A stretch of 57,251 nucleotides of DNA from Saprospiraceae bacterium (GTDB taxonomy: Bacteria > Bacteroidota > Bacteroidia > Chitinophagales > Saprospiraceae), in the NCBI GenBank assembly GCA_020629965.1, contig JAHDCG010000024.1:1-57251 (forward strand), given 5' to 3'. The position numbers and the translations under genes are program-made. A model generated the notes under the pieces. The model was not told the DNA's origin, did no database searches, and worked only from the letters and a program-made list of their open reading frames with translations. Shown one piece after another: positions 15,087 to 45,111 of the stretch; position 1 is the first letter of the stretch, and each line of letters begins with the position of its first letter.

Positions 15087-17930
15087 TCACCCCAACTTCT
15101 CCCCCAAAAACTCCCCCGTAAAACTCCCCTCGACCTCCGCCAAAGCCTCCGGCGTACCCTGAAAAACCAAGTTGCCGCCGTGCTTTCCGCCGCCCGGTCC
15201 CAAGTCCACGACCCAATCCGCCGACTTAATCACTTCCATGTTGTGTTCGACCACGAGGACGGTGTGCCCTTTTTCCACGAGCGCATTCAACGCCGTCAGC
15301 AGCTTGCGAATGTCGTGAAAATGCAGCCCCGTTGTCGGCTCGTCGAAGATGAAAAGTATTTTTTCCTTCGTGTTTTCTTTCGTCAGAAAACTTGCCAATT
15401 TTACTCGCTGTGCCTCGCCGCCCGAGAGGGTAGAGGAGGACTGCCCCAGCTGCACGTAACCCAATCCGACATCGTACAGCGGCTTGATTTTCTTGACAAT
15501 ATCTTTTTTGTCTTTGAAAAATTCGAGCGCCTCTTCGATGCTCAATTCCAAGATTTCAAAGATGTTTTTTTCGTTGTAGCGCACGTCCAAAACCTCGCGT
15601 TTGAACTTATGCCCGTTACACTCCTCGCAAACCAAACGCACGTCCGCCAAAAACTGCATTTCGACCACTTGTTCGCCTTCGCCCTTACAGGTGTCGCAGC
15701 GACCGCCGTCCACATTAAAACTGAAATGCTTCGGCTGATAACCGCGAATGCGCGACAGTTGTTGATTGGCCATCAGATTACGAATCGAGTCGTAAGCCTT
15801 CACGTAAGTCACCGGATTGGAGCGCGAAGACTTACCGATCGGGCTTTGGCTAATCATTTCGACCTGCGTGAGTTGGTCGAGGTCGCCCGTCAGTTCGCGG
15901 TGCAGACCCGGCGAGGAAGTGTAACTTTCTCCGAAATGCTGTTTGAGTGCCGGATACAAAATTTGCTTTACCAAAGTTGTCTTGCCCGAGCCGGAAACCC
16001 CCGTCACGACCGTCAGCGTATTCAGCGGAAATTTCGCGTCGATGTTCTGTAAATTATTTTGGTTCGCGCCTTTGACCCAAATTGCATTCGCGGATTTACG
16101 GCGCATTTCGGGCAGCGGAATTTGCATCGTACCGTTCATGTATTTCGTCGTCAGACTGTCCGTCGCTTCATTGTAAATATCTTCGTAGGGGCCCGCAAAA
16201 ACGACGTGACCGCCGTTAATGCCCGCCTCCGGTCCGATGTCGATGAGGTAGTCGGCGGCGGCAATGACGTCTTCTTCGTGCTCGACGACGATGACCGTAT
16301 TGCCGAGGTCGCGCAGGTCTTTCAGCACCTTGACGAGGCGACCCGTATCGCGCGGGTGCAGTCCGATACTCGGCTCATCGAGGATGTACATGGAGGCGGT
16401 CAGGTTGCTGCCGAGGGTGCGCGTCAGGTTGATGCGCTGCGTTTCGCCGCCGCTGAGGGTGTTCGATAAGCGATTGATAGTCAGGTAACTGAGTCCGACG
16501 TTGACCATAAATTCCAAGCGCGTTGTGACCTCCAACAGCAGTCGTTTGGCAATCGTGCTGTCGTGTTCGTTCAGTTCCATACTTTGAAACCAAGCCAACA
16601 ATTCGTCAATCGGCATTTCCGTCAAATCGACGATGCTTTTGCCCGCGATTTTCACGTAAGTCGCCTCGATGCGCAGTCTGCCGCCGTCACAAGTATGACA
16701 AGTCGTGCGCCCGCGATACCGTGCCAACATCACCCGATTTTGGATTTTGTACATCTTCTTTCTGATTTCATCGAAGAAACCGTCGATGCCTTTCCAACGC
16801 CCTTTTCCGCGCCAAATATTGCGTTTTTGGTCTTTCGGTAAATCTTTGTAAGGCTTATGTACATCCAAACCAAAAGTGTGCGCCGCCTCGATTAAACGCG
16901 TCTGCCATTGGCTCGCTTTATCCCCGCTAAAGGCTGCAATCGCCCCGTCATAAATCGACTTTGTCGGGTCGGGAATAACCTTTTTCTCATCAATGCCCAT
17001 CACTTTACTGAAACCCTCGCAGGTCGGACAAGCCCCGAACGGATTATTAAAATTAAAAAGCTGCGGCGTCGGGTCTAAAAATTCGATACCGTCCGCCGTA
17101 AAGCGGTTGTTAAATTCGCGCTCTTCCACGCCCATAAAGTCGATGATGCACTCGCCGCCCGCCTCGTAAAATGCCGTCTGCACCGAGTCGGCAATCCGTT
17201 TGTCATTCTCTTCATCGTCCTTTTTTACCACAAAACGGTCGATGAGAATGCGAATGTCTTTCTTCGCAAAGTCCTGCACTTTTCCCGCAAATCGCTTTTT
17301 ATCACCATCCAAAATATCTTCCACGCGGGTCGTTTCGCCTTCCCACACCAAGCGCGTATAACCTTTTTGCAAAAGCAATTTTAACTCCGTATCCATGGCG
17401 CGATCGGGGTATTTTTGCTGCAAAGGAATGAAGAGTTGCACCTTCTGTCCCTCCTCGTGCGCCGTGATGTAGTCCGTCACATCCGCAATCGTATCGCGCT
17501 TCACCTCCGTGCCGCTCACGGGCGAGTAGGTACGCCCGACGCGTGCGTAGAGCAGGCGCAGGTAGTCATAAATTTCCGTCAAAGTCCCCACCGTCGAGCG
17601 CGCATTCGAGGTGCTGACCTTTTGCTCGATGGCAATCGCCGGGCAAATGCCTTTGATATAATCGACCTCCGGTTTCTTCATCCGCATCAAAAACTGCCGC
17701 GCATAACTTGACAAACTTTCCACGTAACGGCGCTGACCCTCGGCGTAGAGCGTATCCATGGTGATACTCGACTTCCCCGAGCCGGACACACCCGTGACCA
17801 CCACGAATTTATTTTTCGGAATGGCTAAATCGACATTATTCAGATTATTGCTGTTGGCGCCTTTGATAAATATTTCTTCGCGCAGTTGCTTTTTGGTGGG
17901 TTCGAGGATAGCGGATGTGTTTTCTTTCAT
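15087..17930 (-). CDS. uvrA: Excinuclease ABC subunit A
   Basis: UvrA recognises bulky DNA lesions in nucleotide excision repair. At 947 residues it has family length. The two ABC modules carry Walker A motifs GVSGSGKSS (47-55) and GVSGSGKTT (in the C-terminal half), and signatures LSGGETQR and LSGGEAQR. Zinc-finger cysteines appear as CPTCEGF, CHTCDGG and CDTCKGEGE...CEECNGHKF. No uvrB or uvrC is in the window. A promoter box lies about 170 nt upstream. Confidence 0.98.
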   Translation of the reverse strand: MKENTSAILEPTKKQLREEIFIKGANSNNLNNVDLAIPKNKFVVVTGVSGSGKSSITMDTLYAEGQRRYVESLSSYARQFLMRMKKPEVDYIKGICPAIAIEQKVSTSNARSTVGTLTEIYDYLRLLYARVGRTYSPVSGTEVKRDTIADVTDYITAHEEGQKVQLFIPLQQKYPDRAMDTELKLLLQKGYTRLVWEGETTRVEDILDGDKKRFAGKVQDFAKKDIRILIDRFVVKKDDEENDKRIADSVQTAFYEAGGECIIDFMGVEEREFNNRFTADGIEFLDPTPQLFNFNNPFGACPTCEGFSKVMGIDEKKVIPDPTKSIYDGAIAAFSGDKASQWQTRLIEAAHTFGLDVHKPYKDLPKDQKRNIWRGKGRWKGIDGFFDEIRKKMYKIQNRVMLARYRGRTTCHTCDGGRLRIEATYVKIAGKSIVDLTEMPIDELLAWFQSMELNEHDSTIAKRLLLEVTTRLEFMVNVGLSYLTINRLSNTLSGGETQRINLTRTLGSNLTASMYILDEPSIGLHPRDTGRLVKVLKDLRDLGNTVIVVEHEEDVIAAADYLIDIGPEAGINGGHVVFAGPYEDIYNEATDSLTTKYMNGTMQIPLPEMRRKSANAIWVKGANQNNLQNIDAKFPLNTLTVVTGVSGSGKTTLVKQILYPALKQHFGESYTSSPGLHRELTGDLDQLTQVEMISQSPIGKSSRSNPVTYVKAYDSIRNLMANQQLSRIRGYQPKHFSFNVDGGRCDTCKGEGEQVVEMQFLADVRLVCEECNGHKFKREVLDVRYNEKNIFEILELSIEEALEFFKDKKDIVKKIKPLYDVGLGYVQLGQSSSTLSGGEAQRVKLASFLTKENTKEKILFIFDEPTTGLHFHDIRKLLTALNALVEKGHTVLVVEHNMEVIKSADWVVDLGPGGGKHGGNLVFQGTPEALAEVEGSFTGEFLGEKLG

Positions 17931-18177: not shown

Positions 18178-18846
18178 TCAAGCTTTGTATTTGTTTAGTC
18201 TTTCTACTAATATATGTACGCGTGTAGAAGGCTTTGCATCCGACGGTGTTTTGTCGACAGCGTTTTCCAACAAGCGTTTAGCATGTTTTATTGCCGTTTT
18301 TTCATCCCCTGTCTGTTGCAGAATTTCGTAAATATCATCGCTGTTTTTAGCGTAGTCTCCCAATCTCTGTTTTAGTATTTCAATATAACGGTTCCGTGTT
18401 ACACCGGTGTCCAAATACTGAAAATGCAGTATGTACCATAATTCAAAAGCCTCGTTAGAGTAGGCTGTACCGATGTCCTGACGTTCACCAAGCAGCATGG
18501 CTTCGTTGAAGTGTGCCGCAGGAAAACTGTCTCTGTCAAAGACTGCCCAAACTTCGTCAAAGTCGGGGAGCAGTTTATCTTTAGCACGTTTATTACGGAG
18601 TTCGATTGCCTTATTGACTACACTTAATGTATTGGTCCCTTCTCCCTCTATTTCGACTTTTACCGACTCCGGCGGCAGATGAGCTACCAAAGCATTAAAA
18701 TAATTCGGTTCGGTCTTCTCACCTTCGCACACGAGCAAAAAATAGTGCCGTTGCTCTTCTTGACGCACAACTCGCTTACTGCTTTCCGACTTCTTCAGTT
18801 CTGCAAGCATTTCCGCAAAAGTAGTTTTGTTTTTCTTCTTTGCCAT
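18178..18846 (-). CDS. rloB: RloB-like TOPRIM-type protein (AbiL-like defence partner)
   Basis: RloB-family proteins are small predicted TOPRIM-fold nucleases found beside RloA-type ATPases in Abi/defence loci. The 222-residue sequence shows the TOPRIM-like acidic motif LLVCEGEKTEPNYF (E41, E43), then VWAVFDRDSF with D104 and D106, then SNEAFELWYILHF with E135 and H141. The N-terminal 30 residues are basic. Its start lies 3 nt after the stop of the ATPase gene, so the two are translationally coupled. The name is by similarity; nuclease activity is inferred. Confidence 0.82.
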   Translation of the reverse strand: MAKKKNKTTFAEMLAELKKSESSKRVVRQEEQRHYFLLVCEGEKTEPNYFNALVAHLPPESVKVEIEGEGTNTLSVVNKAIELRNKRAKDKLLPDFDEVWAVFDRDSFPAAHFNEAMLLGERQDIGTAYSNEAFELWYILHFQYLDTGVTRNRYIEILKQRLGDYAKNSDDIYEILQQTGDEKTAIKHAKRLLENAVDKTPSDAKPSTRVHILVERLNKYKA

Positions 18847-18849
18847 GAC

Positions 18850-20076
18850 CTAAAATTGTTGAATAAAAGGAATGGCACCGTAGCGACCACGCAAATAATT
18901 AGCTTCGTAATCCGCATCTTTTCTGATTTTTTGTTGGTCTGCGGTTTTAAAATCCGCTAAAGAATAGAGCCTGCCCGCACCGTATTTATCTTTTTCCGTA
19001 AAGTAAATTTGGTCACGTCGCAGCAGCTCATTATCAAGGAGATTGGTATCGTGGGTCGTAAAAATAAGTTGTGCTTTCCGATTTTGTTCGGAATTGAAAT
19101 ACAGTACGATTGCCTTTGACAGCAGAGTGTGCATCATAGTACCGATTTCATCGATAACGATAATTTTTCCGTTGCGTACAGCATCTATCAGATAACCGGC
19201 GAGATTAAAAAACTTGGCGGTACCGCGTGATTCTTTTTGATACAAATCGAAATTAACGGAGTCAGCCGGTTTGTTATTTTCGTCGTAAACAGTATGCAGC
19301 AACTCGACCGAGTTTTCACGCAAAGTATCAAGAAAGCCGGAACTGTCCCCCTTTTCTACCCGAACATCTTCAATTCCGACATCCGCTTTTTTAAGCAATC
19401 CTAATATTTCCAAACGATTCTCTTCATTTTCCGTGAGAAAATTTTCGGAAAATTTACCTTCGTCATAAAAGCCCGCTCGCAAATTATCGCTGACAAACAC
19501 TAAATCGGCAAACCAATCAATAATCGTCTGCGATATCTGACCGTTAAGTTGTGCACATAAAGACAAGAACAGAGCATTTTTCCGTGTCCATTCTTCCTTG
19601 TTTTTTCCTTCCGAAAATTTCCTTCCGTTAATTTCAAAACTATCATGTACACGCAAAAACAGCGGATATTCTTTAGTTTTTACACGTTCTAACAGCCACT
19701 CTTTGGTGACTCTGTCCTTATTTACTTCAAATCCGTAGCGGTAAATTTTTTCGCTTATACAAACAGATATTTCAAAATGACTGTCAGCTTGCTTTGTTTC
19801 GGAATTTAATAAAAACGGGTCTATGGAAATTTTCTCATTACTCTGTGTGTCTTTTGCCGATGAAATAACAAAAGACGACATAAAGGATAAAGCATTCAAT
19901 AAATTACTTTTTCCGCTTGCATTTTTTCCGTAAACAGCAACGCTTTTCAGAAGTTTTTCGCGCTCAGTCAACAACAGATTAGTTTCGGAAAGCTCACTAA
20001 CCGTGGCTGCCCGCATGTCTAAGGTGTTTTTTTCTTTGAAGACTTTAAAATTACCGACCGTGAATTTTGACAGCAT
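18850..20076 (-). CDS. rloA: RloA-like AAA (ABC-type, AAA15/21) ATPase
   Basis: The 408-residue protein belongs to the OLD/RloA/PrrC-like ATPases. It opens with the typical FTVGNFKVFKE strand, followed by Walker A GKNASGKS at residues 50-57. A Walker B-like IIVIDEIGTMMH lies about residue 310 and an H-loop IFTTHDTNLLD near 345. Such ATPases sense phage or DNA damage and gate a partner nuclease, here RloB. The same ATPase-plus-TOPRIM logic occurs in AbiL and PARIS systems. Two direct repeats overlap its promoter. Confidence 0.85.
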   Translation of the reverse strand: MLSKFTVGNFKVFKEKNTLDMRAATVSELSETNLLLTEREKLLKSVAVYGKNASGKSNLLNALSFMSSFVISSAKDTQSNEKISIDPFLLNSETKQADSHFEISVCISEKIYRYGFEVNKDRVTKEWLLERVKTKEYPLFLRVHDSFEINGRKFSEGKNKEEWTRKNALFLSLCAQLNGQISQTIIDWFADLVFVSDNLRAGFYDEGKFSENFLTENEENRLEILGLLKKADVGIEDVRVEKGDSSGFLDTLRENSVELLHTVYDENNKPADSVNFDLYQKESRGTAKFFNLAGYLIDAVRNGKIIVIDEIGTMMHTLLSKAIVLYFNSEQNRKAQLIFTTHDTNLLDNELLRRDQIYFTEKDKYGAGRLYSLADFKTADQQKIRKDADYEANYLRGRYGAIPFIQQF

Positions 20077-20102
20077 ATTTCTAAATTTTTGAAATAATTT
20101 CT

Positions 20103-20175
20103 CAAAATTAGTTATTTTTATTGAATTTATATCAATTAGTTTAAATTTTTTGCGATTGTATCAATTAATTTAAAT
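20103..20175 (-). promoter_or_regulatory. rloAB promoter with two 17-bp direct repeats
   Basis: On the minus strand the -7 box TAATTTTG (20103-20110) has a TTG 22 nt upstream. That TTG lies inside a 17-bp element (20130-20146) which recurs with one change at 20159-20175, a 29-nt period. On the plus strand each reads TATCAATTA(G/A)TTTAAAT. This looks like an operator, although neither RloA nor RloB has an obvious DNA-binding domain. Confidence 0.5.
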
Positions 20176-43824: not shown

Positions 43825-43946
43825 GTGGAAAAAATGTAGGTAAAAGTAGTACATTTTTCCGCCAAATAAAACTTATCGGTGGAAAAATCTACCCAAATAG
43901 ACCATATTTTTCCACCAAATAAATTTTATCTGCGGAAAAATCTATC
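43825..43946. repeat. 2.5 tandem 53-nt units with internal dyads upstream of the DUF234 gene
   Basis: ATTTTTCC(G/A)CCAAATAAA at 43853 and 43906 starts two units with a 53-nt period, each ending in (G/T)G(T/C)GGAAAAATCTA. The arms TTTTTCCGCC and GGTGGAAAAA form a dyad. A third half-unit (GTGGAAAAAATGTA) begins at 43825. The cluster sits directly before the ATPase start and touches the end of the MFS gene. An autoregulatory operator is inferred. Confidence 0.7.
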
Positions 43947-45111
43947 TGAAAAACGCTTTTCGCAGGGACAACACACCCATAACCGCCCCCGCACTCAAGA
44001 CTAAAAACAGACAGGAAAAATCGACAATCTCCGTCAGATTACCGAGCAACTGAATACTGAAAACCGTCAAAGCAAAGCCGACACAGTTTACTAAGGTTAG
44101 TGCCGTTCCCCGCGTTTCGGGTTGTGCATTTTGCGCGACTAGTGTGGAAAAAAGGGGAGAGTCCGCCACTACGGTCATTCCCCAAAAAATTAAAAAGACG
44201 AGATAAATGACAGACGAATTTTGTAAAAAGAAAAACGGCGAAAGCAAACAGCACAGACCCGACAGCGTTAAAAATCCCGCCGCCGTCCGTGCCGTACCGA
44301 GTCTTTTTGCGGCATAACCGCCGAGTACACAAGAGACCGCCCCGCTGCCGATGACGAGAAAAGCACTTTGCGAAACGTCTAAATTTTCGGTGAGATTTGT
44401 TGCATTGTAAGCCGAAATCGCCAAAGGCACAAAAGCCCAAAAGGCGTACAATTCCCACATGTGACCGAAGTAGCCGAAAGCCGCGCCGCGTAGTTTTTTG
44501 TCTTTAAATATTTGCAAAAAAAGACGCGGGTTGACACGTTGACTTGCTTTGCGAAACGGGCCGTTCGGTACGAAAAGCCACATCAGCAGTCCGCCGCCGA
44601 GAGCTAAACCGGAAACGGCAAGCAAGACCCCTTTCCACGGCAGTCCGCCCGAAAAACCGCGAATAAAATGCGGAAAGGCCGTACCCAAAACCAAAGCACC
44701 GACGAGCCAACCCAAAGATTTGCCGAGTCCGGCGGCAAAATAATCGGCGGCGATTTTCATACCGACGGGGTAGATGCCCGCCAAACAAAAGCCGGTCAAA
44801 AAGCGCAGCAGCAGCAAGCTGCCGAAAGTATTCCCTTCCCAAATTGCCGCCGCATTGAACACCGCGCCGCAGACCGCACTCCCCAGAAATACCCGCGCCG
44901 GCGGAAATCTGTCCGCCAACATTAACAACGCAAACACGAGTGTACCGACGATGAAACCGAACTGCACCGCCGAAGTCAAATGCCCCGGAGCGGAGGCGGG
45001 AAAACCGAACACGGCGGTCAGCTCCGGCAGGACGCTGTTGCCGGCAAACCACAGGGAAGTGCAGCAAAATTGGGAGAAGACGATGACGGGGAGGATGTGC
45101 TTTTTGTGCAT
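43942..45111 (-). CDS. Major facilitator superfamily transporter
   Basis: The 389-residue hydrophobic protein has about 12 membrane helices. MFS motif A survives weakly between helices 2 and 3 (ALLMLADRFPPARVFL), and a second-half counterpart is present (GGYAAKRLGTARTA). Helix 1 begins HILPVIVFSQFCCTSLWFAG, reminiscent of MFS drug/anion carriers related to YnfM. The substrate cannot be assigned. The gene ends next to the 53-nt repeats and lies 97 nt upstream of nothing coding before the restriction gene. Confidence 0.9.
   Translation of the reverse strand: MHKKHILPVIVFSQFCCTSLWFAGNSVLPELTAVFGFPASAPGHLTSAVQFGFIVGTLVFALLMLADRFPPARVFLGSAVCGAVFNAAAIWEGNTFGSLLLLRFLTGFCLAGIYPVGMKIAADYFAAGLGKSLGWLVGALVLGTAFPHFIRGFSGGLPWKGVLLAVSGLALGGGLLMWLFVPNGPFRKASQRVNPRLFLQIFKDKKLRGAAFGYFGHMWELYAFWAFVPLAISAYNATNLTENLDVSQSAFLVIGSGAVSCVLGGYAAKRLGTARTAAGFLTLSGLCCLLSPFFFLQNSSVIYLVFLIFWGMTVVADSPLFSTLVAQNAQPETRGTALTLVNCVGFALTVFSIQLLGNLTEIVDFSCLFLVLSAGAVMGVLSLRKAFFR

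Follow-up and report, generated by a model that had tools for sequence, protein, structure and literature searches.

An AbiL-type ATPase-RloB gene pair

The window, by which we mean the whole 57,251-nt stretch of Saprospiraceae DNA that was analysed, carries on one strand a gene pair with the RloA/RloB gene order, in which the gene for an ABC ATPase comes first in the operon and is followed, after a gap of only 3 nt (18847-18849), by the gene for the TOPRIM protein RloB (Table 1). Searches with family models bear out the AbiL-type architecture proposed in the initial annotation: the ATPase matches the PADLOC AbiLi model (3.9e-92) and Pfam AAA_21 (6.6e-39), and the RloB protein matches PADLOC AbiLii (1.3e-30) and PF13707 (1.1e-45), the latter being its sole Pfam match above cut-off. 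The Walker motifs of the ATPase (G49, N51, G54-K55-S56 and D308-E309) are invariant across 20 sequences, and the acidic TOPRIM residues of RloB are likewise kept, with E46 and D104 invariant and E41 and D106 nearly so across 22 sequences (numbering without Met1 in both proteins). The pair is a new member of the AbiL family, which is itself already known. As initially annotated, neither protein has an obvious DNA-binding domain: the Pfam and NCBIfam models for such domains all stay below their cut-offs. Below threshold, the ATPase matches the NCBIfam model for recF at 1.3e-5 and, at 0.018, an HU-related one.

Table 1. Features of the ATPase-RloB locus, in window coordinates
Feature	Positions	Strand	Basis or remark
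uvrA	15087-17930	-	Downstream neighbour of the RloB gene
AbiLii/RloB TOPRIM protein, 222 aa	18178-18846	-	ORF, Pfam and PADLOC
AbiLi/RloA-type ABC ATPase, 408 aa	18850-20076	-	ORF, PADLOC and Pfam
Putative operator TTTTGAGAAATTATTTCAAAA, 21 bp	20087-20107	-	8 of 10 pairs complementary, odd centre
-7 box TAATTTTG	20103-20110	-	Sequence, Bacteroidota consensus
-33-like TTG	20133-20135	-	22 nt upstream of the -7 box; sequence, consensus
17-bp direct repeat, promoter-proximal copy	20130-20146		Private to this locus
17-bp direct repeat, distal copy	20159-20175		Private to this locus

A resemblance to PARIS had also been suggested. It extends to the general architecture, and the ATPase does match the AriA models (5.4e-36), more weakly than AbiLi; the TOPRIM partner in the window, however, is RloB (PF13707) and not AriB, which belongs to a different TOPRIM family, DUF4435. 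The window RloB gave no match to any PADLOC AriB model at E<=1; the absence of AriB from the 50 fold matches listed for the RloB structure model carries no weight. The PADLOC candidate PDC-M12 may represent a related pair: compared by models alone, the ATPase matches PDC-M12A (5.7e-24) and RloB matches PDC-M12B (0.0025), both far more weakly than the AbiL models.

Sequence searches revealed no solved structure matching the full length of either protein, and for the ATPase profile the structure matches were only partial, with E from 1.4e-4 to 8e-4 for PtuA and retron ATPases. AlphaFold2 models of the two monomers were confident, with pLDDT values of 86.3 (ATPase) and 91.4 (RloB). In Foldseek comparisons the ATPase model is similar to the heads of Rad50/SMC proteins, to PtuA and to the ATPases of retrons. 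The RloB model matches the TOPRIM region of OLD (6nk8, Z 8.1), a match that we treat as supportive only because other folds, among them many lumazine-synthase-like entries, match at similar Z.

The window promoter and its direct repeats

The Bacteroidota -7 box has the consensus TAnnTTTG, and a box of this type precedes the ATPase gene. The two 17-bp direct repeats reported for this leader are present with one mismatch (16 of 17 positions identical) and a start-to-start period of 29 nt, and the reported overlap with a -33 element is a fair description, the -33-like TTG falling inside the promoter-proximal copy. Within this leader, 84% A+T over 120 nt, equally high-scoring direct repeats arose in 16 of 2000 shuffles, and in 1 of 500 shuffles of the 349-nt leader.

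The initial annotation took these repeats for an operator, and conservation in homologous loci speaks against this. No other leader among 190 relatives of the locus contains the 17-mer within 3 mismatches (controls, 3/271), not even those of ATPases at 47-55% identity (L041, L042, L087 and L089), and direct repeats of score at least 13 show no enrichment in the relatives, with 5/191 against 16/271 control promoters. A genome-wide search found 6 other sites with 2 mismatches, against 7 for a reversed control, which is background and gives no sign of a 17-mer regulon. The repeats are promoter-proximal and rarer than expected from most shuffles; their period of 29 bp is a non-integral number of helical turns, and we regard an operator role for them as very improbable. 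The direct repeats were rejected as operator, being private to the window locus in a family that lacks direct-repeat enrichment. Elsewhere in the window, a strong direct repeat of a 39-nt stretch with a period of 53 lies in A+T-rich DNA at 43831-43950.

A palindrome of fixed geometry in the leaders of ATPase relatives

A different element, an inverted repeat at the -7 box, was first suggested by side-by-side reading of the relatives' leaders. Comparison of 191 non-redundant relatives revealed a conserved 21-bp palindrome, W-TTTG-NN-N7-NN-CAAA-W. The earlier idea of a leader element whose reader was left open stands insofar as a conserved element exists; that element is the palindrome at the -7 box and not the repeats. 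The 191 relatives are what remained of 223 ATPase ORFs once sequences had been collapsed at 85% identity and those with less than 90 nt of upstream sequence set aside; three duplicate IMG/VR loci, and short copies of loci that overlapped, had been removed before that step. Their start codons were set by a motif rule. The 271 control promoters are the leaders of ORFs no shorter than 120 aa, called by a crude longest-ORF rule in 33 stretches of DNA of 20 kb each, 13 from the host genome and 20 from twenty other ATPase-holding genomes. Because the relatives' leaders are more A+T-rich than the controls (mean 70% against 63.5%), shuffle and spacer controls were also used.

The strict form of the motif, TTTG-N11-CAAA, is present in 75 of the 191 relatives and in 5 of the 271 control promoters (Fisher 1.8e-27), and 50 shuffles of the same 191 leaders yielded a mean of 2.4 and a maximum of 6. 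The other TTTG/CAAA spacers counted (3-10 and 12-19) reached at most 11/191, with 1-3 loci for each spacer from 5 to 10 and 8, 5, 6 and 11 loci for spacers 12, 13, 18 and 19, respectively. Of the TAnnTTTG sites, in which the left arm is anchored in a -7 box, 26 out of 57 in ATPase leaders continue into N11-CAAA, as compared with 4/698 in 660 kb of control DNA, and none of the sites in ATPase leaders has CAAA at spacers 5-10 or 14-18. The N11 spacing came to light in the discovery set (20/55) and the first replication set (24/49), which are therefore not independent; the sets fetched after the rule had been seen are independent, and gave 22/54, 3/13 (other phyla) and 6/20 (IMG/VR). Palindromes of score at least 6 anchored on TAnnTTTG were found in 19/46 discovery loci against 3/39 control promoters of the host genome and, with wider controls, in 19/42 discovery and 16/40 later loci against 8/100.

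Single-locus inverted-repeat statistics had proved weak (p<=0.05 in 9 of 64 leaders) before the tests of position and spacer were carried out. The count of plain palindromes with 7-bp arms is raised at gap 7 (46/191 relatives; controls 12/271), and since it is also raised at gaps 5 and 9 (33 and 35 of 191; controls 14 and 12 of 271), we rely on the TTTG-N11-CAAA motif and on the covariation described below. The median distance from site start to ATG is 32 nt, with quartiles of 38.5 and 29; in Bacteroidota the -7 box often includes the left TTTG, and about half of the relatives (101/191) are without a site of score at least 6.

In the window, the left-arm TTTG (20103-20106) is part of the -7 box, and the arms TTTTGAG and TTCAAAA flank the spacer AAATTAT. 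This copy is imperfect and unremarkable alone, the best inverted repeat of its leader being another one (p 0.785); it was called because three relatives whose half-sites belong to the AG class (L041, L042 and L087) carry TTTTGAG-N7-CTCAAAA almost equally far from their ATG.

Some leaders have more complex arrangements. Those of L016, L021, L049 and L113 contain two palindromes of score at least 6 each, which share their half-site class in three of the four leaders. In the leader of L015, an inverted repeat of 45 nt with arms of 20 bp and nested TGCA palindromes lies about 39-83 nt upstream of the ATG.

Half-site covariation and spread of the palindrome

To assess symmetry beyond the fixed letters, the right-hand letters of 74 sites were reshuffled 2000 times. 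Complementary pairs exceeded the highest of the 2000 shuffles at positions -1/19 (61 against 36.3 expected, maximum 52), 4/14 (48 against 24.9, maximum 38), 5/13 (52 against 31.1, maximum 45) and 6/12 (40 against 25.2, maximum 39), and the two innermost pairs, at the centre, did not rise above the shuffles; these shuffles ignore relatedness, and shared ancestry therefore explains part of the signal. The half-sites fall into classes AG, CA, TG and TA, of which AG and CA recur in distant loci, and the class is alike between nearest-neighbour ATPases in 37 of 54 cases, against 12.0 expected. Judged from the leader sequences, covariation of this kind is as expected of a symmetric reader whose specificity has changed among loci.

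The 7-bp arms and 7-nt loop could also be those of a hairpin in the leader RNA, and the frequent inclusion of TTTG in the -7 box could reflect two divergent -7 boxes. The inner mismatches, however, show no sign of wobble tolerance (18 of the G.T type, 23 of the C.A type), and the left arm is untranscribed where the -7 box is used. For divergent promoters, the asymmetry of the flanks is adverse, with TAnnTTTG on the left in 38/72 sites and the mirror-image CAAAnnTA on the right in 3/72. We consider both of these readings extremely improbable.

The same geometry recurs outside the Bacteroidota. The strict motif precedes RloA-RloB pairs on Psychrobacter and Variovorax plasmids and on IMG/VR (virus/prophage) contigs L243, L252, L255, L256, L259 and L260; over other phyla and IMG/VR, with a Klebsiella plasmid counted, it is found in 9/33 loci (p 9.7e-7). 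The pair on E. coli plasmid L267 has TTTTCGC-N7-GCGAAAA, of the same length, with C replacing the conserved G. In the host genome, neither of the two palindrome forms searched revealed a regulon: GTGAGA-N5-TCTCAC occurs at one AbiL promoter only, the second match having another spacer.

These observations bear on whether a regulator encoded outside the locus reads the palindrome. Such a reader would require no new DNA-binding fold, and versions of the palindrome with TGTGA-N5-TCACA resemble CRP/FNR-type sites. A host regulator is difficult to reconcile with half-site bases that covary, vary among loci and track ATPase relatedness, with the recurrence of one geometry on proteobacterial plasmids and virus/prophage contigs, with the confinement of GTGAGA-N5-TCTCAC to a single AbiL promoter, or with the scarcity of TAnnTTTG-N11-CAAA in the control DNA counted above, and we judge it quite improbable. 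Because the motif recurs across phyla and follows ATPase relatedness, and the two forms searched gave no regulon in the host genome, the reader probably lies inside the locus.

Two partner types and the candidate reader

RloB lies directly downstream of the ATPase gene in 152 of the 191 relatives; 12 have a protein of about 147 aa (P147) in its place (L015, L029, L037, L050, L055, L070, L115, L132, L217, L219, L269 and L270), and 27 have neither, some of these being broken or cut. The P147 proteins inspected share a C-terminal motif like (I/V/L)VF(L/F)D(K/R)(D/N)H.FW. The one P147 protein searched has no Pfam match, a five-sequence P147 profile showed no similarity to RloB (hhalign probability 1.7%), and the Klebsiella copy gave a weak PADLOC NsnC match over 30 residues. 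The ATPase family thus has two unrelated partner types, and P147 is likely an alternative effector.

Sites of score at least 6, a threshold that like the P147 comparison itself was framed after examples had been seen, occur in 69/152 RloB loci, 6/12 P147 loci, 15/27 of the others and 2/271 controls, and the strict motif in 3/12 P147 loci (p 0.003). Most P147-type sites are positioned 50-80 nt upstream of the ATG, away from the -7 box, and most of them are among the 22 of 82 sites that start more than 50 nt upstream. The Klebsiella plasmid locus L270 has perfect 7-bp arms and a second, imperfect site beside them. Being common to RloB and P147 loci, the ATPase is the likeliest reader of the palindrome, alone or as the core of a complex.

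The palindrome might instead be read by a RloB TOPRIM dimer, or by a basic N-terminal tail of both partner types, with the ATPase as modulator. A Lys/Arg-rich N-terminal stretch is often present in both partner types, the first inner operator base shows an association with RloB alignment columns close to the N-terminus, and nearest-neighbour concordance of half-site class is the same for ATPase and RloB (30/44 each). The scan for associations between residues and operator bases flagged segments in both proteins. The site is nevertheless as frequent with the unrelated P147 as with RloB, though the strict motif is limited to 3 of 12 P147 loci, and we regard a partner-encoded reader as unlikely. 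For the ATPase, the C-terminal segment 376-400, where model confidence is very low at 376-385, offers a lead only.

The more general proposition is that AbiLi/RloA ATPases are sequence-specific DNA-binding autorepressors without a known DNA-binding domain, that each reads a 21-bp palindrome of fixed geometry whose half-sites have co-evolved with it, and that the ATPase regulates the operon whether the toxin is RloB or the 147-aa protein; we would put its chances at about even. Phage sensing, toxin control and transcription would then be joined in one ATPase. A shared operator also provides a handle for footprinting and for finding diverged systems and partner swaps, and it allows one to ask whether a Rad50/SMC-like ATPase head reads DNA sequence.

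Comparison with known systems and proposed mechanism

The closest known counterpart is AbiL of L. lactis (abiLi-abiLii), a two-gene abortive infection system (PMC10440598, PMC3985639) with the same two families in the same order and adjacency as the window pair. Similarly, the NetFlax pair D29 (AAA)-D44 (RloB) of Clostridium algidicarnis, reportedly validated by toxicity-neutralisation assays, combines an AAA neutraliser with a RloB-domain toxin, and NetFlax AAA antitoxins take several partners (PMC10440598), as the AbiLi ATPases do with RloB or the 147-aa protein. The portion of that article available to us describes no DNA element for D29-D44 (PMC10440598). A toxin-antitoxin reading has to accommodate the F. 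nucleatum system, in which AbiLii is toxic in E. coli and AbiLi gave no antitoxicity, and the AbiLii of L. lactis, which is not toxic in E. coli, both as given in the accessible part of PMC3985639.

PARIS (AriA-AriB) is alike in action, pairing an ABC ATPase sensor with a TOPRIM nuclease: the ATPase hexamer retains the TOPRIM tRNase, and a phage trigger liberates it, according to the sections available (PMC12409363). The words 'operator' and 'repress' are absent from the main text of that paper. For autorepression, the closest parallel is AbiE (AbiEi-AbiEii), an Abi system of two genes; AbiEi, the product of the first, binds inverted repeats of its own promoter via a winged helix-turn-helix (PMC3985639, in the part accessible), whereas nothing in the AbiL ATPase is recognised as a DNA-binding domain. 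Open-access literature, searched by title and start of abstract, contained no account of an operator or of autoregulation for AbiL or RloA-RloB; most subscription papers, and the 1999 AbiL paper itself, fell outside this scope. As far as we have seen, the putative palindromic operator is a previously undescribed feature of the AbiL family.

On balance we favour, as rather probable, the interpretation that the window pair is an AbiL toxin-antitoxin-like anti-phage operon that represses itself through the 21-bp palindrome at its promoter. We propose RloB as a toxic nuclease effector, and the ATPase as its neutraliser, as sensor and as reader of the operator. The ABC ATPase would keep RloB inactive until a phage-made trigger frees it, and the freed RloB might then cut nucleic acid and abort the infection; the analogy to PARIS AriB suggests RNA as its target, perhaps tRNA. 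A symmetric assembly, most likely an ATPase dimer or an ATPase-RloB complex docked via the ATPase, would bind the palindrome, and since the site covers the -7 box and the presumed start, its occupation should block transcription. Titration or disassembly of the complex during infection would in turn let transcription rise. Self-repression of this kind would bear on how two-gene ATPase-TOPRIM immune systems hold their own expression low.

Occurrence and genomic context of the pair

The host draft genome (6.5 Mb) contains six RloB loci, all six with an ATPase gene directly upstream. ATPase relatives at 54% and 47% identity were found in uncultured Saprospiraceae, and a match at E<=1e-10 in 16 of 60 close-relative genomes, the host genome counted in. 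In wider samples, the ATPase was detected in 59/298 genomes of the family and 69/396 of the order (both at E<=1e-40), and in 28/296 across the phylum (E<=1e-30). The single genome of the same genus (89% complete) holds it only as a broken fragment. This patchy distribution is in keeping with a mobile defence module, to which the ATPase may belong.

The initial annotation had placed the pair beside uvrA and read this as a possible link to damage sensing. The gene does adjoin the pair downstream; the damage link, which was lightly tested, is unsupported, and in the same-genus genome there is no ATPase beyond the broken fragment. Homologues of the two genes that flank the pair, uvrA and a TPR-repeat gene, are on separate contigs both in the same-genus genome (G001) and in G002, an arrangement that in draft assemblies speaks neither for nor against adjacency.

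Several individual loci have features of their own. In the host genome, L007 (G000 C113:13000-32000) carries two intact ATPase-RloB pairs about 6.4 kb apart with differing leader palindromes, and at L010:7393-7812 (G000 C236) a TAG codon shortens the RloB frame to 139 aa, the ATPase frame upstream being fully open. L267 and L268 are on small E. coli plasmids, about 3.9 kb in length, for which the ATPase-RloB pair and few other genes are listed, nikA being one of these in one plasmid; the leader palindrome here is TTTTCGC-N7-GCGAAAA.
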